Shown piece after piece: positions 5,181 to 54,067 of a stretch of 64,000 nt of DNA. Each line of letters begins with the position of its first letter. The stretch's first letter is position 1. Source of the DNA: Periconia sp. R9002 (lineage: Eukaryota; Ascomycota; Dothideomycetes; Pleosporales; Periconiaceae); the NCBI GenBank assembly GCA_023627715.1, contig JAMAHW010000003.1, positions 248,001 to 312,000 on the forward strand, given 5' to 3'. The translations under genes were made by a program, and so were the position numbers. A model generated the notes under the pieces. It made no database searches. It was not told the origin of the DNA and saw nothing but the letters and a program-made list of their open reading frames with translations.

Positions 5181-6209
5181 GCTCTGCGTTTTAAAAGGTG
5201 AGAAGACTGAACTACAGTAGCCTACAGTCACGTTCACGAGACTCTGCGCGATGGCATTTTGGCGGTCACCTTCTGAGTGTTCTTTCTTTAGTCATTGCGA
5301 CTTTTGGCCTACTTTGGGTTTCTGGCGTTCACACTGGTGGTTTTCTGCAATTGGGGAGACAGGTTACATTATGCAGGACCTGAATGCCCCTCACAGGGGG
5401 TTTGATACTGGCGTGGATGTTAATTGGGGACGCACCCTAAATCTGTACAATACAAATCAATCAATGACGGCTCAAGTGTCTTGTTCAATCGCCTTTCTAG
5501 TGTGCCCTATGAAAAAAAGCATAATACCATAGCATCATACATATGTAAATTGAAAAGTTTTCATTGGATAAGAAAGCGTCAATTCCTACACAAAATATTC
5601 TTGCTCCATGATTCATTATTTTGCTATCTTACTGGGTCAGACACGCTGGTGAACCTTACGATTCTGAAGTCACAACTTTTGATTGGTCTATTATGGGTAG
5701 CGCATCTGATGGATGAGGTAATCACTCTGACATTCCATGATGACTAATTTTTACACGTGATTGCACTAGTATTACTTGGCAACGCCGCTCACTCTTTGTC
5801 TCCACTTCTCTTTCTCTCTCTTTCTCATTCTCAACTCAACTCACTCACATTCACCAGACCCCGCAACCCCGCCGCTCTCTTCATCTGAAGCGCCACACCT
5901 TGCGTACGGCTTTATTTCCTACATACACGATATTAGCGACACAAGGAAGCACCGGGTATACGATTACATTAGGTAACTGCAGGTGCTGCTACGTACGCTT
6001 CTGGGTCGCCCAACCTTCCACCTTCCTCCCTTCACCCTGTACCCCTTCTACATAGCAATATACTAGTTGCGCTGTTCGCACTCATCACAAGTTGCGCCCC
6101 TTTCTTTCATCAACTTGATTGCATCTGCTCGGCAGTTCAAGGTGACTGCAACGGCGGTTAAGCCCCCCTAATACCGCCTCTCTAGGCATCTACTACCCGA
6201 GACGCCACC
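5181..6209. other. Intergenic: HRP1 3' region and MPE1 leader
   Basis: No supportable gene. The first part is probably the HRP1 3' UTR. From about 5795 the sequence is pyrimidine-rich up to the MPE1 start, which has a strong context (GCCACCATG). Confidence 0.5.
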
Positions 6210-25867: not shown

Positions 25868-27955
25868 TCACAAATCAAACCTGAACCTCTCCTCGCCCCT
25901 CTTGACCAACCTAATCGGAATCGTCGCGCCTCTCAATTGCAACGTGATGATACTCGCAGCCTTGTTTCGTAAAACGTGCTGTGCCTTATCCGCGGCCATT
26001 CTCCAAACCTTCTCCTTGGCCTCGTCATCCATGCGCGCGACCTCCTCGTCCGAGGCAAATTCATCCACCCCAAGCTCGACGCTGTACTGCGAGAAAATGA
26101 CGGCGAAAGCGGCGAGGAGCTCCACCTGAGCGAACCTGCGGCCAATGCAGGACCGGTAGCCGTCGCTGAAGGGGATGTAGGAGCCCCGGACGGGTTTGAA
26201 GAGCGACGAAGAGGTGTCTTCTCCCGAGGGGCCGCGCAGTTCTTCGTCGTCGTAGTCGATGTCGACGAAGTCGGTCGTGGAGTTCTTGTCGAGGAACCAG
26301 CGTTCCGGGCGGAATCGGTCGACGTCTTTGATGCTGCTATTTTGGTCTGCCTCGTTGGATGGTCCGGGCCAGTATCTGGGGTTGCGGTGGATCGCGCAGT
26401 TGAGTAGGACGTGGGTTCCCCCAGGCATGGTGTATTGTCGGTCGCCCATTGTGAAGACTTGGGGACGTCCTGGGGCGGTGGATTTGGGGATGTTGACGAT
26501 GGGTTGGAGGACGCGGAGCGTCTCGTTCATCACTGCTGCCGGCATGGACCCGAATAGTTTAGGGAAATCTTCCTCGTATTTCCACTCTGAGATGGGTCGA
26601 CCGTTGATGATCTTATCGACATCCTCTTGTAAACGTTCCTGTGAAGACCAGTGCATAGATAACAGGATCAGAGAGAAGTGGAGCGAGTTGGCTGTAGTTT
26701 CGTGACCTGCCAACATCAGGACAAAGGCGTTGCCGAAGATGTCGCTCTTTTTGACTGCCGTTTGCTTTTCGTCGATAATGTTACTTGCGCGAATGAGTGC
26801 CTGAAATATGTCCATGCCCTCGGTCTGCTTGTCAGAGGCAACCTGCTCCCTCTTGATCTCGTACACCTCCTCCATGTACTGACCCCATTCATCTACAGCA
26901 GTGCCTACCGTCCTATGAACTTTGAGCGGTGACTTTTCTATTGCGAAGTCAGCATGAGCACAAAAAGACCTTGGTTTTTCAGGTACTATGCTGCTATAGA
27001 AGCTTCATCGATAGACTGTGACTGACTGCTCCACTTACTGAGAAGTTTAGGGGGCCCGACCATAGTCCACATAATGTTATGAAGCAACTCGCTCAATGCC
27101 TGTCGATAGCTCATCTGGTGACCGGCAGGTACGTCCGATCCCATCGTGACCGAACTTTCGTTGGGTTTTTGAGCATTTTGATCTTTCCCGTCCTCGTCTT
27201 CATGCGCCCAATTCACTCGGACATTAAAACCAGCGCCGCTGATAATGTACAACGCCCACCTCATAGTATCGCTCGCAACGTCCAGGTTCTTATCGCTGCT
27301 CTGTGCCTTTTGGGCCCACAGCCGGAGAAGAGCTTGCGTATGATAGAGCGTCTCATTAAACACCAACTCATTGTTGCGCTCGCCGAAACTGGGCGCGGCA
27401 ATCTTTCTATGCATACGCCAGTCATGACCCTCAGTCGAAACCAAGTTCTTGCCGTAAATATCCAGCCGGCGATACATCTCCAAGGGCTTGGGGAAATCAT
27501 TTCGCCTTGCTGTGATCTGAGCGACGACCTCTGCATCGGCGACGAAGCATATTATCTTAGTGGGCGAAACACACAGAAAGACATCCGAATTAATTTTCGC
27601 ATAAGGCTCATGCCCAAGCCTATGACCCCATTCCGGATCGAGTACGCTATCAGAAATGGTCAATCGAGAGGAAAAAACATATATGAATATTATTTCTTAA
27701 TTGAAGAGGAACCTACTCTGTCCACACGCCGTGGTGGGATACAGGCACAATGCGGCGCAGTATCGGCGTCCAGATCCAGAACGTAGAAAGCCAGAATATA
27801 CCAAAAACATTCGCAGGTACGACTACATAGGGCAAGCCCGAGCTCTTTGCTGAGGCGATGTTCCGCCTAAGGTCACGATACAGCATGAGCAGCTGGATAA
27901 GGATGAAGCCGACGACGGCGCTGAGGATGAGAGATGACAAAGTCATGGTGGCCAT
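25868..27955 (-). CDS. Cytochrome P450 monooxygenase
   Basis: Membrane-anchored microsomal P450, 638 residues, model complement join(25868..26937, 27039..27646, 27717..27955) with consistent phases. An N-terminal hydrophobic anchor follows MATMTLSSLIL. Further motifs are the C-helix region WRMHRKIAAPSF, the I-helix AGHETTA (about 357-363), the ExxR motif ETLR (421-424), FRPERW, and the haem-binding loop FSDGYRSCIGRRFA with the axial Cys near residue 546. All key residues are present, so it is probably active. The length is above the usual 500-550, partly because of an acidic insertion before the haem loop (VDIDYDDEELRGPSGED). I preferred the start at 27955 over one at 28039 because it puts the anchor at the very N-terminus. 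The substrate cannot be assigned, and no secondary-metabolite core gene is adjacent. Confidence 0.92.
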
Positions 27956-44243: not shown

Positions 44244-44699
44244 TTAGAGACTTAATTTGCAACATCCTTTAGCATATGGAGGCATAGATTTAACCCGAAC
44301 AAAGTCTATCAAGTTAATTAGATTAGGTACCATTCGAATAAACTTGCTTAACGAAATAAATCTTACCCCAGAAGTAACTGCGATGGTATTGATTCGCGAT
44401 ATTTTGTTGTCAATCTCCGATAGGGTTTTCTTTATTCGTAGAAATGAGTCATTGATCTTGTTCTCCGTTTGTGGAACCCTGTTATCCATTTGTACCATCC
44501 TGTTCTCGATTTGTACCATCCTGTTCTCGATTTGTACCATCCTGTTCTCGATTTGTACCATCCGGTTCTCGATTTGTACCATTCTGTTATTAATTCGTAC
44601 TATCCTGTGTTCCATGTTGGAAAGACGACCGTGTGACATGGTAGTTGCCCGGGAGATGACGCGTGACATCGCACGTTGAGCGATGGGATGAGAAAGCAT
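44244..44699 (-). CDS. Small heptad-repeat coiled-coil protein (hypothetical)
   Basis: A 151-residue frame starting at an ATG. After a basic N-terminus (about 1-30) it has five near-identical heptads of NRMVQIE type (about 36-75). Met and Ile fall at alternating 3- and 4-residue spacing, so they form the a/d core of a coiled coil. A second helical stretch follows (about 76-105, NKINDSFLRIKKTLSEIDNKI), then a hydrophobic C-terminal part (FIRMVPNLINLIDFV). The DNA shows 21-bp tandem units from about 44482 to 44606. No family recognised. Introns near the C-terminus are possible. The repeat preserves frame and heptad register, which argues for coding, but the surrounding DNA is AT-rich and gene-poor. 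Confidence 0.45.
   Translation of the reverse strand: MLSHPIAQRAMSRVISRATTMSHGRLSNMEHRIVRINNRMVQIENRMVQIENRMVQIENRMVQIENRMVQMDNRVPQTENKINDSFLRIKKTLSEIDNKISRINTIAVTSGVRFISLSKFIRMVPNLINLIDFVRVKSMPPYAKGCCKLSL
44482..44606 (-). repeat. 21-bp tandem repeat encoding heptads
   Basis: Five to six units with few substitutions; each encodes one heptad in the coiled-coil frame. Confidence 0.85.
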
Positions 44700-45359
44700 G
44701 TTGGGTGTGGAGCGTGAGGGCGGCGTCGACCTTGGGTTGTAGTTGAAAATAGTTAGGATAAAGTCAGAAACGATGAGTAGAAAACGATGAGCGGGGTGGA
44801 GGGATGATGAAGAAGAGGAGAGCGATGAATTAAATAGTTAGTGCTTGCGGAACTAGAGATTGGTAGCGACTACATTTACCGTAGTTACCAAGAACCTGCC
44901 ACGCGGGTGTCAATATATCCCGCACTCACAAACATTGAGTAAAATAAAACTATAGAAATACTATCCTAGTATTCTACTTACTGTTAAGAAGACTATGATT
45001 CTAGGGGGAAGAGACCCTCGAAGCGTTGTATATAGAGTGGTAAGTGTTGTAAGTGCGGGCTATTTCCACACCTAGGTGCCTCCGGGGGCCGCAACTGAGA
45101 AAAGAACTCAAATCAGCTGGGTTGGAAAGTACCTGGGGATTTAGATAAGATCGAGGATGCGCTGACAAAGTTCCGCGTGAAAAATGCAGCAAAGCATAAT
45201 GACTCAACGGTGACATCGATATGAAGATCCGAGGCAATGGGTCTTACATACAGACTGGCAGAAGATGTCGTAATGAGATGGATTTACTAAGGGATACCAA
45301 TCATTCATGACTGACACCCATTTTGTACCTACACGAGCCTCCGAGATCAAAGCCATCTC
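44700..45359. other. Intergenic, AT-rich
   Basis: About 660 bp between two minus-strand genes. No gene seen; it contains the presumed promoter of the coiled-coil ORF. Confidence 0.4.
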
Positions 45360-47093
45360 TCATTGATCAAAACAAATCTTAGTCCTCCACTTGAACGTAA
45401 TATTCTCATTCCTCAAATCCTCTCCTTTCCTCCCCTCAGGATACGCCCACCAATCCAGCACCTCCAAACAATGATAAAGATGCTCTCTATCAATATCACG
45501 CCCGCAAACATGTCGTCCACTCTCCTTCGCTTTAATATACCTCCTCACAGCCAACACGCAATGCGCCATGTGGAACAGCCCATCCGTCGGCACGTTATCG
45601 ATGGCTGGACTGCTAATCCACGTCTCGTTCATATGATCGCCGCTCGTGCGGATGCGGTTCATCTCCGTGTAGCGGTTTTGGAACCATTTCTGATAGTGTG
45701 CTTCTTCTGGGTCGAGGAGGTAGGTTGGGATGACGGCTTGGTCGTCGATGCGGAGGGTCCATTCACCGGGTTTCATTGCGGAGAGGAGTTCGGTGGCATT
45801 TTCGGGCGTGACGTGGCGTTGGTAGTAGGGTCCGATGCTGCCCTCTGTCGAGAATTCTGTGAACTCGTGGACCTGGTTACTGGAGTGTTTGCGGCTGTGG
45901 TATTTGACTGAGAAGAGGAAGATGGCGAGTGCGCTTGCAATGATACCCAAGATGGTAATTGCTGCACTGGGTGAAAAAATGCGAGCTCTGAGGATTGATT
46001 TTGATTTTGTTTTCTCGATGTTTTGGCAGGCTGTTGCAATTTTTTCTTGCCTGTCTTGCGGCAGGCCAAGGGTGGGCAGTAGTTTTGGATCGTATCTTGC
46101 AAGGATGGTAAGGACTGAGGAAGTTTCTGAAGCGGGCGATTTCCCGTGTTCCCCTGGATTGAACATGATGGAAATTTGACGCTGATTGGGCCTTTTGATG
46201 AACTCATGGGACATCTTGAAAGCGTCGTCGAGATTGTTAGTAGAGGGGATTGCCGCACGTACATGCCACATAATAAAGGTACCATGTTCAGAAACGTCGA
46301 AGATGGTTGGGACTGCAGCTCCTTCTGGAGGTGCTTCACTAAGTATATCTTTCAGGCTTCTGTCGGATTCGATGCTTTCTCCGCTTGAATGGTAAACCTG
46401 ATGAACGAAAATATTTACGGATTCAAACAGTGGTTCATATGAAGGACTAGAAGCCCGATGGCCTTTGAGGTATTCGAGAAACATGTTGAGGGAATTGACC
46501 TTGAACCAGTTCACAGGCTTTCAAGAGGGGAATGGGAGAAATACTGAGCGAGAGATTAAAACCTACAGCGCATAGGAAGCCGATCTCGGACGCTGGATTA
46601 TCGTCATGTGCATTCCGAGGATGCTGGTGTTAGCTGATATACCGGTATTTTTCATTGCTATGCATATAGAGACGCCGATCTTGCCAGCACAAACACGGAG
46701 GTGAGTTTTAAGATTTATCGTTACTGTGGAGTTGGTACATCGTATATGCAGAGTAGGCGAACGCGAAAACGCCAGAATAGGAGAAAAGGCTACACTACAT
46801 ATAGTAGGTATTGCCACTAATAAGGAGTCGTGTGGTCGTTTTGCAGGAGAATCAAGATCTACTTTACGTACATTGACTGCAAATACTGTTTCCCACTCTA
46901 TGTCTTCTTGAATATCTATTATTAGATGTTTGCATATTTGCGAAAAAGGAATTGAATATGTAAAGACCGAATAAATGGAATACCCATCAGGTGAGAGTTT
47001 CTTAGAAAATGGGAAACTGGGCTTACCGGCTGAATTCGTGCAGGCGGGGTTCGGCTGCACCCCACTGTTGTTACGTGTGCAAAAACTATTCAA
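45360..47093 (-). CDS. UstYa/DUF3328-like membrane protein with extra N-terminal region (5' end uncertain)
   Basis: UstYa-type proteins are fungal membrane oxidases involved in forming cyclic RiPPs and other metabolites. The main exon (45360..46517, 385 residues to the stop) has a hydrophobic segment at about residues 184-203 of that exon and then the two diagnostic motifs HMAHC (315-319) and HLYHC (345-349). The family normally begins with the membrane helix; here about 180 residues of unrecognised, predicted cytosolic sequence precede it. Consistent phases link further upstream exons at 46567..46623, 46872..46915 and one ending at 47027. This last exon is open to about 47117 but has no in-frame ATG, so the true first exon is not resolved. 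The gene lies 0.8-1.4 kb upstream of a secreted peptide precursor on the opposite strand, which fits a RiPP setting. Confidence 0.7.
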
Positions 47094-47117
47094 CGTTCTT
47101 CTTTGACAGTTACATCT

Positions 47118-47902: not shown

Positions 47903-48262
47903 ATGAAGTTCTTTGCAATTACACTCGCCACGCTCGTCGTTGCAGTTTCTGCTCTACCGTAGGTTTTCCGTTACGTTATTCCATAACTTCCCAAGCCCCC
48001 ACAAGAGAGAGCTTTTACGATGAGTCTCAAGGTCACCGTTTTTTTAATGGAAGTGTATCAGAGCATAGCTGATTTGAGTCCAGAAAGCCACTTTGCGTAA
48101 CACCAAACCAAGTGGGCTGTATCACGAGGCGAGAGCCTGTGCCGTAGGTGTTTCGTGGTTAAGTCATAGAACTTCATTGAAACGTGTGGCTAATTCGTCT
48201 TCAGCGAGCCAAAATGTTCAAGTCCCAACCAAACAGGGTGTATAACCAAGCGACAGGAATGA
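47903..48262 (+). CDS. Secreted two-repeat peptide precursor with Kex2-type sites (alpha-pheromone-like or RiPP-type)
   Basis: Model join(47903..47958, 48084..48143, 48205..48262), 57 residues; all junctions are phase 2 with GTAGGT donors and CAG acceptors. Residues 1-17 are a signal peptide (MKFFAITLATL...VSA). The rest is two units. Unit one is LPKP, then LCVTPNQVGCIT, then RR. Unit two is EPVPEP, then KCSSPNQTGCIT, then KR and a final QE. Each core has two Cys seven residues apart, ready for a disulfide. Each core is preceded by X-Pro dipeptides, as trimmed by Ste13-type dipeptidyl peptidases, and followed by a dibasic Kex2-type site. Known alpha-pheromones share a C-x-x-P-G-Q-x-C-like centre, so the similarity is suggestive but partial (no Trp, PNQ instead of PGQ, one residue longer). 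Alternative: a RiPP precursor for the nearby UstYa-like protein. Each unit has its own exon, implying exon duplication. Confidence 0.72.
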
Positions 48263-48485: not shown

Positions 48486-49463
48486 TCAAATTTTTGACCT
48501 CAATGTCGTACTATCCATGCGCCTTCCTTCATCAGACTGCTCTTCAACAGTGAGGTCGGGAAATTGTGAAGGCATGATCCGGCGAGGGCTCGATCGTGGC
48601 ACAACATTATATTTCTCAAAATCGGTGACTCCCTTCTTACGCAAGAAGTCCTCGTCCAATTCAAGACAACCATTCACCTCAGGAACAGGAGCCTGAAGTA
48701 TGGCCAGGATAGCGTCGCTGAATATGGTCGGTTTGCGTAACTCGCTTGCCTGCTCTTGAGCTAGATTTTCCGTGGCCGCCGATTGGATAGCTGTCGCTGG
48801 CCAGATACTCGTGATGGCCATCTTTGTCTTTCCTTCGCGCTCCCAGTCCATTGCTAATCCTTTGGTGAGAACGCTCATCCCGACTTTGCCCATGGCGTAG
48901 GCTGTTTTTCCTCGGAAGAACCGTGAGTAGATAGGTGGAGAGATGACGACGATTCTCCCTATCCAATCATTCTTCCGAAAGTAGGGGAGCGCAGACTGAA
49001 TAGTCCCATATAGCCCTTCGATGTTGACGCGCTGCATGAGTTGGAACCGTTTCATTGGCGTGTTTTCTACGCTGGCCCACCAGATGGCTCCACTATTGTA
49101 AATGAGGACATCTAGTTTACCGTACTTTTGGACTGTTTGGGCTACCATGCACTGAATTTGCGCGTAATCACGAGTATCGCAAGCGACTGCCATGGCGTCT
49201 CCACCTGCCTCTCTGATCTCTCGTTCGACGGTACTTATCGTGGATGCTTGCGAGTTGGGGTCAGGTGGGAATGGTGATACGTTACTCGCATCGGATGTGG
49301 ACTTTGCAGCAACAACAACTTCAGTAATCAGTATTTCATTTCGTAAATTTATGCTGGCATACGCACCAGAGTATCCGTTCTTCGCTAAGTCGATCGCGAC
49401 TTGCCTGCCAATTCCTCGCGAGGCCCCGACGATAAGCGCTACTTGTTTGCTTGACATCGGCAT
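48486..49463 (-). CDS. Short-chain dehydrogenase/reductase, HSDL2-like
   Basis: NAD(P)-dependent SDR of 309 residues, complement join(48486..49318, 49367..49463). The 48-nt intron is a multiple of three and has no stop, so the frame also reads through, but removing it gives the expected NGYS/VVVAAKSTSD strand of the Rossmann fold. Motifs: cofactor loop VGASRGIGRQ near the N-terminus, then the acidic pocket CDTRD, then NSGAIWW, then the catalytic pair YAMGK preceded by VVISPP. The insertion after AAKSTSD and the sequence around NTPMKRFQLMQRVN resemble the hydroxysteroid dehydrogenase-like 2 family, often peroxisomal or mitochondrial; no clear C-terminal SKL is present (ends RSKI). I took the first in-frame ATG, although a further 5' exon is possible. 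It is convergent with the peptide gene, 223 bp away. Confidence 0.85.
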   Translation of the reverse strand: MPMSSKQVALIVGASRGIGRQVAIDLAKNGYSGAYASINLRNEILITEVVVAAKSTSDASNVSPFPPDPNSQASTISTVEREIREAGGDAMAVACDTRDYAQIQCMVAQTVQKYGKLDVLIYNSGAIWWASVENTPMKRFQLMQRVNIEGLYGTIQSALPYFRKNDWIGRIVVISPPIYSRFFRGKTAYAMGKVGMSVLTKGLAMDWEREGKTKMAITSIWPATAIQSAATENLAQEQASELRKPTIFSDAILAILQAPVPEVNGCLELDEDFLRKKGVTDFEKYNVVPRSSPRRIMPSQFPDLTVEEQSDEGRRMDSTTLRSKI

Positions 49464-49939
49464 TTCATTAGAATCATTCAAGGATACTACATTGAATTAG
49501 TAGAATGAGTATCTATATGAATAAGAAGACAGATGATTGTGGCCGCGCTCCTAATCTTATTGTTGAAGGCACTGTTGCTGTCGGATTACTGATCGGACAA
49601 AGCTCGAGACCACGCTAAGTCCGTCTACCGAGGTATCCTTGCGTGCGTGATACGCGAGGTGCGGAGAAGGATCGACTCAGGGGCTCCATCGCCTCTAAGA
49701 CACGTTTTACCCCGTTTCCAACCATTGATGCCAAGATAGATGATAACTAGCTAGTCAAGGCAATATGCGGTTTCTTAACCAGATACTGCAATTGTTAGTG
49801 GGAATCTAAGGATCTCATGCCAATAAGGTAATCTCGTTTTATGAGTGTGGGAAAAATTTGAATATGATTTATCACTTGTTCGTCTACTTCATCATGAATT
49901 CATTATCGTCAAAAACATTTTGCATCAATAAGAGACACA
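49464..49939. other. Intergenic between SDR and CFEM receptor genes
   Basis: About 475 bp, SDR promoter and 3' flank of the receptor gene. No gene seen. Confidence 0.4.
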
Positions 49940-51404
49940 TCAGTGACTGATCTTCCCATGGCTCACCAAACTCGCTTCGTCAATGTCCTTCTGTCCAAAT
50001 TCCACTGCGAAACTGCGCTTGATTGTTACGCCCTCACCGTCACTGGATTCCCCGAAATGGGGACTGGTCACGGCGCTGCTAGATTTAATAGACTTATTGT
50101 TGTGACTGATGTTTTTCAGCTCGTTTCCACTACCGTATTTCTGGTATTGTTGTGTGCTACGGGCTGAGGAACCGGCGAGAACGGGGAAGAGTCGGACTAA
50201 AAGTAATCGAAGAGTTGGAAGGCAAGCACTGAAGGGTGAAATCAGTTGATGAAGCATGCGACTTGTTGATCAGAACTTACCACATGATGCCGACGGCGAT
50301 CTCAATTGAACTCCATACGGAAACATCGTAGAACTCCCAGCTTGCGTTCTCGGAGGCAGCGAAATGCACCAGTGCTCTCAGGCGTAAGATACTGACGATA
50401 GTGACAAATGTGCCGACGCAGAACATCAGCGCTACACCGACCTTCTTTTTCCAATGCATCTTTAAGCCCCTTAGCTGCCAAAGTGGTATCCCCAGGATCC
50501 ATAGGTCCAGTGCGATACTCAATCCGGCATTGCTCGATGCAATAGCGTTAACGTCCAGGCATGATCCTTCATGTAAGCCATCCCACTTCTTCCAAAAATA
50601 ACTGATGGGATGGCACTGAAAGATGGCTGTTATTACGTACGCAACGCCCCAAAGCGTTACAAAAAGAGCAGTTCCCCAAAGAAGTCGTTGTGCGTTCTTG
50701 CTGGGAAACACGCGCGTGTAGAACAGAACAAGCGTCAGTTTCAAGAGGGTGACCTGTATAAAGTACAAGAAAGCCATTATGTAGAAGTATTTGAGCATTT
50801 CGGTGATTTCGGAGGGTGTTAAAGCCCAAATGTCTTGCCCGAGACCATTCTTGACGGTACCATACACGGTAATGACTGCGCTGGGAATACCGGAGATGAG
50901 CGTGGCAAGTACACACCAATCGTCGTAGGCGAAATCCGATCTAGAGACTGAAGCTTTGAAAGTGAGGCGGATGACTACAAAGGCAGCAGCTATGCATATC
51001 ATGATGTTGGAGAGTTTGACATAGTCTTGGCCATGGTTGCGGACGGGGGCGCCGCAAGTCGTAAGAGAGATATTACGCGTAGCTACATCGATCAGTTCAT
51101 GCTCAACGCAGAGAATGTGCAAGGTGCCTACCTAATGCCTCAATGATCGTGCAGTTACTCGTCACACAAACTGTAACGTGTTCCTGGAAGACGGGATTGG
51201 TACAAATGCATGTCTGGTTGGCTGGACTGCAAGTATTTGTTTCAAAGGCACCCATTAGACATTTTAACTAGCTGATGGTTAGCAAGACCTCATGGTATTT
51301 ATAGTCGGACACTTTACAGCACACAGTGGCATGGCGCCAGATTGTGCGAACGATGTCGCGCACAAGCTGGCGAGCAGCAGAAGCAGCACGCGTAGATACT
51401 TCAT
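49940..51404 (-). CDS. CFEM-domain PTH11-like seven-helix receptor
   Basis: Plasma-membrane protein of the PTH11-related GPCR-like class, several of which sense host surfaces or nutrients. Model complement join(49940..50228, 50281..51082, 51132..51267, 51318..51404), 437 residues with matching phases. A signal peptide (about 1-23) is followed by a CFEM domain with eight Cys (PLC, LKC, NTC, QTC, IC, TVC, SNC, TTC). Seven hydrophobic helices follow, starting at NIMICIAAAFVVIRLTF, with the loop motif YDDW typical of the rhodopsin-like fungal membrane family. The C-terminal tail from about residue 345 is Ser/Thr-rich and cytosolic. The CFEM reading depends on removing the intron 51268..51317, since the unspliced frame stops. 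The gene is in the same orientation as the SDR and the UstYa-like gene. Confidence 0.9.
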
Positions 51405-54067
51405 ACTATTGTTGACTCGAAGATCCGGGGCCAGATGCTGGTAACACAAACGTATGTCGGAGGTTGCAGTATATTGGAGGTCATACAATGGACGTACATA
51501 GGGGTTAAGTAGGGATAATTTTGCGGGTATGCTTCGCTCATGTGGTTAATGCTCCGCTAGGTGATCTTGGCCGAAGCCGTCCGCCACAGCATGGTGTTCG
51601 AAGGCAGACGATTGACTCATGTCATCAGAAGTGACATCTAATAACCCAGCCTGCACTAGTCAACTAGGCAGTGATAGCCACGGCTAAGAACTATAGTGCA
51701 GCGCCACGTGGGTACCTAGTGCTATCGAAAGTGTCCTTGTCTTCACAAACGATTGGTAAAATCACTCGGGGTATCAACACCAGGTAAGAAATCACAGGTA
51801 ACGTCCTTGGCGGGAACTGAACATTTGTGGATACATCTATACGCACTTGTATGGTAGCAACAATCGGTGTTTCTCGAGTAACCCTAGTGCTACTTTAGCT
51901 ATGAATTGCATAATCTGGCACGGCTGTATGGTTGTAATTACATTTTGCCCAATCTGCCGGATATGAAAGTACCGCGTTCTTCTCAGCGATCATATCAAAA
52001 GATGAACGATAGAGGTAGCCAGGCAAAGTGGGAATGTACCGTGCTGGGTTCCCGATATATTGTATAACTGCGCCATAACTCTATAAAGTGGGTCAGAGCC
52101 CATCCCCAACAACTGCTTGTCGGCCGAAATCACATCTGTCGCTCTACTATCTGCAACTTTTGCTAACCCTAGGACAATTGTGACATAATAACTGCAAACG
52201 GCATTTCTAGAACACAGTGGCCAGTTGCCTTTCTCCCAGGACAGTTTGAAGGGAAGCTACGGTTCTCACGAGTCTTCAGCAAGATAAAGAATAGATATGG
52301 CATAAATTGTGCACATGTAGCACGTAGTTGTCATCGGTTAACCTGTAAGCGAGAAGCTATCTTTAGCGAGATGGAGAACTTTTCCCCCTAGCATGCACCA
52401 CAGCGTTCTTTGCGAAATGCACTTACGAAACTATTGCGGTTTCTAATAGTTCTGGGACCACGCCTCCTGACTAGAATAAAACCCATCTAGGCCGCCCTAG
52501 TTACTTTTCTAGTAATGGCGAAAGTTACATTGCCATGATATAAGCACGTGTTTATATACTGATAAGCTAGTATATTAGGTGACGCTGTGCTTAGAGTACA
52601 CATTTCGATACACCGTCGGGGAACATATACAGGGGATGTCACATCGGAGGTGACGATTCGGGCCGTCTAGTGATTTTAGAGGGTCCGATCAATTAGACTT
52701 TTGGATTTTTGCTCTATATGTCGGCGACTTTTCCACGGAACACTAGAGACCGGAATACTCCGTCTCCGATGTGTCACCCCCCTGTGTCTATACCATTACT
52801 AGTGTAGGAAACGCTGATGACGCATTGTGTTCTTTTTGGTCAGGAGGGTTGACTTCCTACGGTAAATCCTGAAAATCAACAATGAAAAAGTACGCGGCGC
52901 GCGAAGCCGATCTCATGGCTAGACCGAATGAAGTAGTGCTCTGCTTCTTCATCGAACCTCATTCGCTACGGAAAAAACCCCGATTTCGTGAGATCACAAG
53001 ACATGATTGAACCCTGGCAACAAAAAAGTGGATAAAAGTGCGTGCTTGCGGGAAACATCAGTAAAATCTGGGGCACCTGTGGCGCTCGAGGAAGTCTAGG
53101 ATGCATTCAGATCTTGAGAGTGGATGAGGTTGATTGGGGTATGTATGAAACCCGCAGGAAACCAAACTAAGTTTCATTGAACGTCGTACTGTGTAAATTC
53201 AAATTGTGCATTGAGGACAAGGGTATAGTAGCATTAAGATCCGCTCTAATTTGTAGAAGTGGTTTACTAAGCTGAAATACGTATGGATGTTTTACATCTT
53301 TCTTTTTCTCGGGTTCGCTGCTTCGACTTGACAGATTTTCTACCTTGTACCTATACTATGGACTGAAAGAAGTGACGTACGCCCCACCTCCCGATGAAAC
53401 CGAGCATCATCAAGGATATATATATTACCAGCCTTTTTAATATAAACCATTCAGATATCATACAAAATGGCCCACGTCCAACATTACTCAACCCCATGTA
53501 GAACCAGGGGGTAGGTCCGGAACTTCTGTCACTCCATAGTAGACATGAGGATTTGAAGACCAGGCTCTTGGTGAGAGTTATACCGGTAAAGCCACGGATC
53601 GTTCAACATTTATTCCGTGTATTTTGTGCTTATTAGTGTTAGAAACAGAGAGAGTAGAAGCTGAAGTTCTCATTTGGTTGGTACGTATAAACATAATTCC
53701 AATGGAATTTGCATTGTTCATCGCAGGGCAGCGAGCATTGCGGACGGCGTTGTATTATGATTCCCACGTGAAATCAGAAATTGTTCCGCTATCTCTCTTG
53801 CAGCTGACAAAAGTTTCTGTTACCAGATCTTCTCCACCATCTGAATATGATGTTCAAGCATTGCTCCGCCCTATTACCCACCGATTACTGGTGGACTTCC
53901 GCGACCATGACTCCGTGCTGTTTCAATCTCCCTCTTTTTCTCGCGCAGGATGCAAATAGCGTGTTTAAATCCTTAGATTTGAGCCGGATGAAGCATACCA
54001 AGTTGACGGCGTCCCCTGATTATAGAATAAATTAACAATTGAAGCAGACGACAGGACTGCATACCAC
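51405..54067. other. Gene-poor interval with a MITE
   Basis: About 2.7 kb without a supportable gene. It includes the promoter of the CFEM gene and a 155-bp inverted-repeat element (52630-52784). A frame at 53624-53959 starts at a non-ATG codon and has no recognisable domain. Confidence 0.5.
52630..52784. mobile_element. 155-bp MITE, copy A (TA/TG flanks)
   Basis: The ends are imperfect terminal inverted repeats: CAGGGGATGTCACATCGGAG on the left, and on the right the reverse complement of a CAGGGGGGTGACACATCGGAG-like arm. The left flank is TA; the right flank is TG, as if one base of a TA target duplication had mutated. It has no coding capacity. It has exactly the same length as, and related ends to, the element at 62435-62589. 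Confidence 0.75.

Follow-up and report, generated by a model that had tools for sequence, protein, structure and literature searches.

Dikaritin precursors (ustiloxin, asperipin-2a, phomopsin) carry a signal peptide and repeated cores set between dibasic Kex2 sites, and a neighbouring gene encodes a protein that combines two HxxHC motifs with a membrane helix. Known dikaritin cross-links use tyrosine. A further set, the Kex2-processed repeat proteins (KEPs) of Umemura 2020 and Le Marquer 2019, is defined by secretion, Kex2 sites, and repeated peptides. In the sections of the Umemura survey that we draw on, 22% of 7878 such proteins lie near a DUF3328 gene, most often directly adjoining it, and Tyr is found in 65.6% of the repeats of DUF3328-linked KEPs, so that with 34% lacking it this residue is usual and not universal (PMC7329392). 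The enzyme side is represented by CctR, a DUF3328 protein described as having one membrane helix and a lumenal helical domain, in which the HxxHC(x)nHxxHC motif that marks the family holds two coppers; it hydroxylates a C(sp3)-H bond (PMC12435403). The alpha-pheromone precursors Ppg1, PpgA, and Ccg-4 also have a signal peptide and Kex2 sites, together with X-Pro/X-Ala spacers and a Cys-loop with a turn Gln. As far as the cited sections go, the X-Ala/X-Pro signature is described as serving, in general, only the alpha-type pheromones of Ascomycota and is stated to be absent from the cyclic toxin precursors considered there; among Dothideomycetes, the alpha-pheromone is of the PYG[LM]P[IV]G type in Pleosporales and of a two-cysteine type elsewhere (PMC6339444).

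Here, we analyzed a 64,000-nucleotide stretch of the genome of Periconia sp. R9002 (the window), in which the sequence-only reading had proposed a hidden three-exon gene for a small secreted precursor with two Cys-loop units. Enumeration of GT/AG splice combinations recovers exactly the product that had been claimed, the 57-residue MKFFAITLATLVVAVSALPKPLCVTPNQVGCITRREPVPEPKCSSPNQTGCITKRQE. Splice products longer than 45 residues arise from 29 combinations, six of which retain both cores. In two of these six, namely the claimed model and one that lacks three spacer residues, exon 1 is spliced from its GTAGGT donor; the remaining four splice from a donor further upstream, which cuts off the end of the signal peptide. 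In the claimed model, the signal peptide and the spacer stay complete and the donor of either intron is GTAGGT. Each intron ends in CAG and interrupts a Pro codon between its second and third bases, and exon 2 is therefore a symmetric module of 20 residues. See Table 1 for the coordinates of all features.

The predicted precursor consists, in order, of the predicted signal peptide (MKFFAITLATLVVAVSA), LP-KP, core LCVTPNQVGCIT, RR, EP-VP-EP, core KCSSPNQTGCIT, KR, and QE, which supports the earlier description of a secreted precursor with Kex2-type sites and X-Pro spacers. Hydropathy in the signal peptide region reaches its peak, 2.62, in the 12 residues that begin at residue 4, and small residues stand at -3 and -1 by eye; the cleavage site, after VSA and before L, presumably fits the -3/-1 rule. 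The mature chain that follows has 40 residues and four cysteines. In both units, Pro occupies every second position of the spacer from the cut to the core, an exact even register. In alpha-factor, such a dipeptide register is what Ste13-type dipeptidyl peptidases read. Tyr, Trp, Phe, and His are absent from both 12-residue cores, and the calculated [M+H]+ values of their disulfide forms are 1245.597 (LCVTPNQVGCIT) and 1236.535 (KCSSPNQTGCIT).

Table 1. Features of the precursor locus and its surroundings (window positions).
Feature	Position	Strand	Evidence
Exon 1: start codon, signal peptide, Leu, two bases of Pro19	47903..47958	+	splice enumeration
Intron 1, 125 nt, phase 2, GTAGGT...CCAG	47959..48083	+	splice enumeration
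Exon 2, 60 nt: last base of Pro19, KP, core 1, RR, EPV, two bases of Pro39	48084..48143	+	
Core 1, C-x7-C	48091..48126	+	splice enumeration and unit detector
RR, Kex2-type site	48127..48132	+	
Intron 2, 61 nt, phase 2, GTAGGT...TCAG; 5' end and preceding exon end repeat those of intron 1	48144..48204	+	
Exon 3: last base of Pro39, EP, core 2, KR, QE, stop	48205..48262	+	
Core 2, C-x7-C	48212..48247	+	splice enumeration and unit detector
KR, Kex2-type site	48248..48253	+	
Distant DUF3328/UstYa-like protein gene (predicted), adjacent, divergent	45360..46514	-	profile, alignment, motif evidence
Single membrane helix of that protein, residues 185-203	45906..45962	-	hydropathy 2.54; model helix 182-208
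First HxxHC motif, HMAHC, residues 315-319	45558..45572	-	alignment
Second HxxHC motif, HLYHC, residues 345-349	45468..45482	-	alignment
Short-chain dehydrogenase, downstream of precursor gene, convergent	48489-49481		Pfam
Fungal-rhodopsin-domain membrane protein, next after short-chain dehydrogenase	50280-51122 (region 50280-51545)	-	Pfam
P450, ~20 kb from precursor gene	25871-26875		Pfam

The adjacent gene on the opposite strand starts ~1.4 kb upstream of the precursor gene; its product probably starts at 46484 (residue 11), in line with the start of several close relatives. Pfam at its default threshold assigned the protein to no family. At a loose threshold, PF11807 (UstYa) matches the whole protein with E 0.27 and 11.5 bits and its C-terminal half with E 0.043 and 14.1 bits, against a cut-off of 25. 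A protein search gave 33 homologues, none listed with a precomputed Pfam domain, and the closest named one (74%) is from Periconia digitata, a pleosporalean dothideomycete. The seven closest orthologues, this one among them, show 68-77% identity. When 21 of the 33 were aligned with the window protein, HxxHC-x25-HxxHC was present in 22/22 sequences, and UstYa matched 14 of these 22 at E <= 1 (best E 7.1e-5). We also built a profile from six same-genome UstYa open stretches, chosen by hand from ten PF11807 loci, and hhalign matched it with a probability of 79% and E 1.5e-5; the 42 matched columns take in both motifs. The spacer between the motifs is 19-49 residues in those six. An AlphaFold model (mean pLDDT 79.1, pTM 0.45) places the motifs on helices 312-332 and 343-357, and the motif domain follows a single membrane helix. 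The invariant motif, the sub-threshold PF11807 matches, the hhalign result, and the CctR-like topology are the reasons why we call this protein DUF3328-like: by motif and topology, though not by Pfam score, it is a predicted distant member of the family.

Unlike CctR, whose helix is reported to begin at residue 38 (PMC12435403), the neighbour has a membrane helix preceded by ~180 residues, for which an alpha/beta fold is predicted at about residues 36-140. Most aligned relatives also have residues 1-184, at lower conservation. A fold search of the model against the PDB returned 0 matches at E <= 1e-3, and PDB sequence searches gave nothing usable. A single-protein search of the genome for a paralogue returned only the protein itself, and a viral contig scan for the family confirmed 0 of the 49 stretches that matched a pattern. 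The ATG-to-stop stretches between the two genes are of 31 to 61 residues only; the same interval holds one 184-codon open stretch (46566-47117, minus) with no Pfam match, and a spliced gene may lie there.

We tentatively read the locus as a small fungal RiPP-type pair, in which the precursor peptides would be oxidised by the adjacent divergent DUF3328 protein, and put the probability of this reading at just under one half. The 57-residue precursor would enter the secretory pathway, where Kex2 would cleave behind both dibasic sites, RR and KR. A Kex1-type carboxypeptidase would strip the basic residues left at the C termini, and trimming of the Ste13/DPP IV type would take off the X-Pro dipeptides to leave two 12-residue peptides, LCVTPNQVGCIT and KCSSPNQTGCIT. 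In each, a disulfide would close a nine-residue loop over a Pro-Asn-Gln turn. The lumenal, putative copper enzyme from the adjacent gene may oxidise the peptides during export, with C-H hydroxylation or a further cross-link as the likeliest reaction. Domain searches of the genome gave one match for the Kex2-type P domain and three for the DPP IV N domain, of which two are free of stops and one contains stops.

How often such a neighbour would occur by chance can be roughly estimated. The PF11807 profile has 61 matches in the 42.9-Mb genome, at ~34 places by hand grouping, which by arithmetic gives a PF11807 neighbour within 2 kb in roughly 0.3% of cases; the true chance is somewhat higher, since the count leaves out divergent members and we inspected several neighbours. 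Against the RiPP-type pair stand the score of the neighbour below the Pfam cut-off, the lack of a PDB fold match for its model, the scarcity of other enzymes among the open stretches given to Pfam, and the lack of an aromatic residue in the cores; but Tyr is also missing from 34% of the repeats in DUF3328-linked precursors, and CctR acts on a C(sp3)-H bond. Furthermore, the DUF3328-like protein may have a job of its own, since it has 33 relatives versus none found for the precursor in protein searches.

The locus shares with dikaritin loci a predicted signal peptide, repeated cores between dibasic sites, and a neighbouring gene whose product has a predicted membrane helix and both HxxHC motifs. 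It differs in having two units instead of many, with one exon each, in carrying a Cys pair and no Tyr in either 12-mer, and in an enzyme that has both motifs but misses the PF11807 cut-off; of possible further cluster genes, only the short-chain dehydrogenase is adjacent to the precursor gene. Like KEPs, the precursor has a predicted secretion signal, Kex2 sites, and repeated peptides, but the KEP definition asks for at least three repeats, and here there are two, split by introns. The genome itself is rich in UstYa genes, and we examined ten PF11807 loci with ~1.5 kb on each side. On contig C60, a Tyr-type repeat precursor with DITYIDK x5 and X-Ala spacers (L001:3016-3375, minus) lies ~1 kb from a canonical UstYa gene (L001:1429-2064, minus). 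This pair is likely a dikaritin-type locus with Ste13-type spacers.

The reading that survives best beside the RiPP-type pair is that Kex2, Kex1, and Ste13 alone release two secreted, disulfide-looped signal peptides, pheromone- or hormone-like and non-mating, next to a DUF3328-like gene by coincidence. We consider this conceivable but doubtful. Its appeal lies in the combination of an X-Pro dipeptide register with a two-Cys loop, the look of many ascomycete alpha-pheromones, and in a core that resembles the C-x3-GQ-x-C of an alpha-pheromone-type gene elsewhere in this genome, plus one residue. That gene (contig C90, L041:4961-5617 and 5692-5814) has a signal peptide-like start and GCRFVGQPC-KR, followed by eight RRFVGQPA units with EA/DA/EP spacers; past a stop, an open stretch ends in WCRFVGQPC. 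The eight RRFVGQPA repeats lack both cysteines, which are found only in GCRFVGQPC and the downstream WCRFVGQPC, an arrangement that looks unusual for a pheromone precursor. Three Cys-type pheromone patterns matched at 7, 8, and 11 places, some of them shared, and by eye only this gene is pheromone-gene-like; these patterns are no complete pheromone census because they require PGQ or a Trp next to Cys. The Pleosporales-type PYGxPxG pheromone has 0 matches in the genome. The STE2 receptor is encoded by one gene, whose match is split into two adjacent parts.

A pheromone-type gene and a single STE2 are thus already present, which speaks against a further plain signal. So does the rarity of DUF3328 genes near pheromones, with only 3 of 216 putative fungal pheromones having one in the sections of the Umemura survey used here (PMC7329392). 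The spacers do not help this reading either: the UstYa-linked Tyr-type precursor on C60 also has an X-Ala spacer (DADA-A-WYDITYIDKR), and an X-Ala/X-Pro spacer therefore cannot separate a signal from a RiPP.

We considered and set back a mating alpha-pheromone identity for the precursor. It has Kex2 sites with X-Pro spacers of the alpha-pheromone kind (RR-EPVPEP; LPKP after the signal peptide), and its cores fit neither C-x3-GQ-x-C nor PYG[LM]P[IV]G. The sequence-only reading had proposed a comparison with the alpha-pheromone gene of the same genome, and this comparison goes against identity: the C90 core is C-x6-C with GQ, as in Ppg1, PpgA, and Ccg-4, whereas the precursor has C-x7-C with PNQ, that is, Asn for the Gly of the GQ turn, and a DUF3328-like neighbour. 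Of the two fates left open by that reading, pheromone-like or RiPP, the mating pheromone loses ground to the separate gene and the core spacing. The RiPP fate gains from the adjacent DUF3328-like gene, since DUF3328 genes are seldom near pheromones in the Umemura survey, and on this circumstantial evidence we favour it over a pheromone.

Less probable still is a small secreted two-loop Cys protein, effector- or defence-like, that stays intact or is cut once and whose dibasic sites are incidental. The signal peptide and the four cysteines of the mature chain would suit such a protein, but the two units each conserve a Cys pair, a dibasic site, and an X-Pro lead-in, which a single fold need not do.

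We take the predicted precursor gene to be real because of its unique pattern, the detector controls, the in-frame identity, and the silent codon changes. The degenerate PNQxGCIT pattern CCNAAYCARNNNGGNTGYATHACN has 2 matches in the 42.9-Mb genome, both at the locus and 121 bp apart, and a reversed control has 0. A unit detector, written after the pair was seen, looks for neighbouring C-x(4-10)-C...[KR][KR] units with equal Cys spacing and at least 55% identity. The locus is its sole match in 222,954 bases (window and overlapping loci included), and 6,000,000 bases of second-order Markov sequence gave one weak pair (5/9 identical) and none with at least 9 identities. The units are identical at 10/16 residues in frame and at 4/15 in each other frame, and 5 of the 10 conserved residues have differing synonymous codons between units. 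With the 17 nucleotide differences placed randomly, at least 10 residues are kept with P = 0.005. We rely on this value and set aside a P of 0.00024 for "all five differences synonymous" as circular, the codons having been picked as conserved. Protein rather than DNA is conserved between the units. Furthermore, the exon end and intron start are repeated (CTCTACCGTAGGTTTTCCGT / CTGTGCCGTAGGTGTTTCGT, 80% over 20 nt, spacing 185), as duplicating an exon with its intron start would leave them, which supports the earlier proposal that the gene grew by exon duplication.

The sequence-only reading had also pointed to relatives of the core as a check. A genome search for a precursor paralogue returned only the locus itself. 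The first of two protein searches gave 0 candidates. For the second, the query was doubled to let in longer relatives that carry more repeats, and its single candidate did not reach E <= 10. Little weight attaches to this negative, since the searches required three exact 5-residue words and small spliced genes often go unpredicted. Chance open frames or a decayed gene would agree with the lack of a homologue in protein searches and of a genome paralogue, but are highly improbable given the unique duplicated pattern, the synonymous change in conserved codons, the phase-matched introns, and the absence of a comparable pair from 6 Mb of simulated sequence. A scan for bacterial-type promoters and terminators was uninformative for a fungus.

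As their cited sections describe, both published surveys start from annotated proteins and require at least three repeats, of 8 or more residues each in Umemura (PMC7329392, PMC6339444), and a two-unit gene would therefore be skipped. In the part drawn on here, a study of lichens describes two clans of DUF3328 clusters, reports a repeated precursor in neither, and takes single-core cases into account (PMC12048977). The open-access literature that we surveyed, with subscription journals mostly outside it and its papers represented in part, yielded no DUF3328-linked precursor with a two-Cys, non-aromatic core. If the RiPP-type pair is correct, both of its halves lie outside the survey filters, which ask for an annotated protein with at least three repeats and for DUF3328 at the Pfam level, and an uncounted number of such loci could therefore exist. 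It is speculative, and we think rather unlikely, that the locus stands for a class of minimal RiPP loci in which a divergent, sub-Pfam DUF3328 copper oxidase acts on non-aromatic, disulfide-looped peptides from few intron-separated units. In such a class, the pheromone-type loop would be joined to DUF3328 C-H oxidation. The RiPP-type pair by itself, if correct, would provide a DUF3328 substrate that has no Tyr, Trp, Phe, or His, with a direct bearing on what these recently recognised copper enzymes oxidise, and would link pheromone-like disulfide loops to RiPP tailoring. The exon-per-unit layout suggests how such precursors can grow by duplication.

We ran Pfam on 17 open stretches of the 42-64 kb region of the window (of 129 with at least 60 codons). 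The short-chain dehydrogenase is the only other enzyme, and no peptidase, transporter, P450, or tyrosinase was found among those 17. Reductases are reported from some dikaritin clusters, such as that of asperipin-2a (PMC12048977, in the part cited), and for this reason the short-chain dehydrogenase might belong to the locus; we do not count it as evidence. The rhodopsin-domain protein is presumably PTH11-like. Upstream of it, an open stretch (51282-51545) has by its look a secreted CFEM-type start and no Pfam match. On the other side of the locus, a 21-nt tandem array of 6.2 copies (44478-44608) encodes NRMVQIE heptads within a 197-codon open stretch (44247-44837, minus), whose Pfam matches are coiled-coil-like and all below cut-offs.
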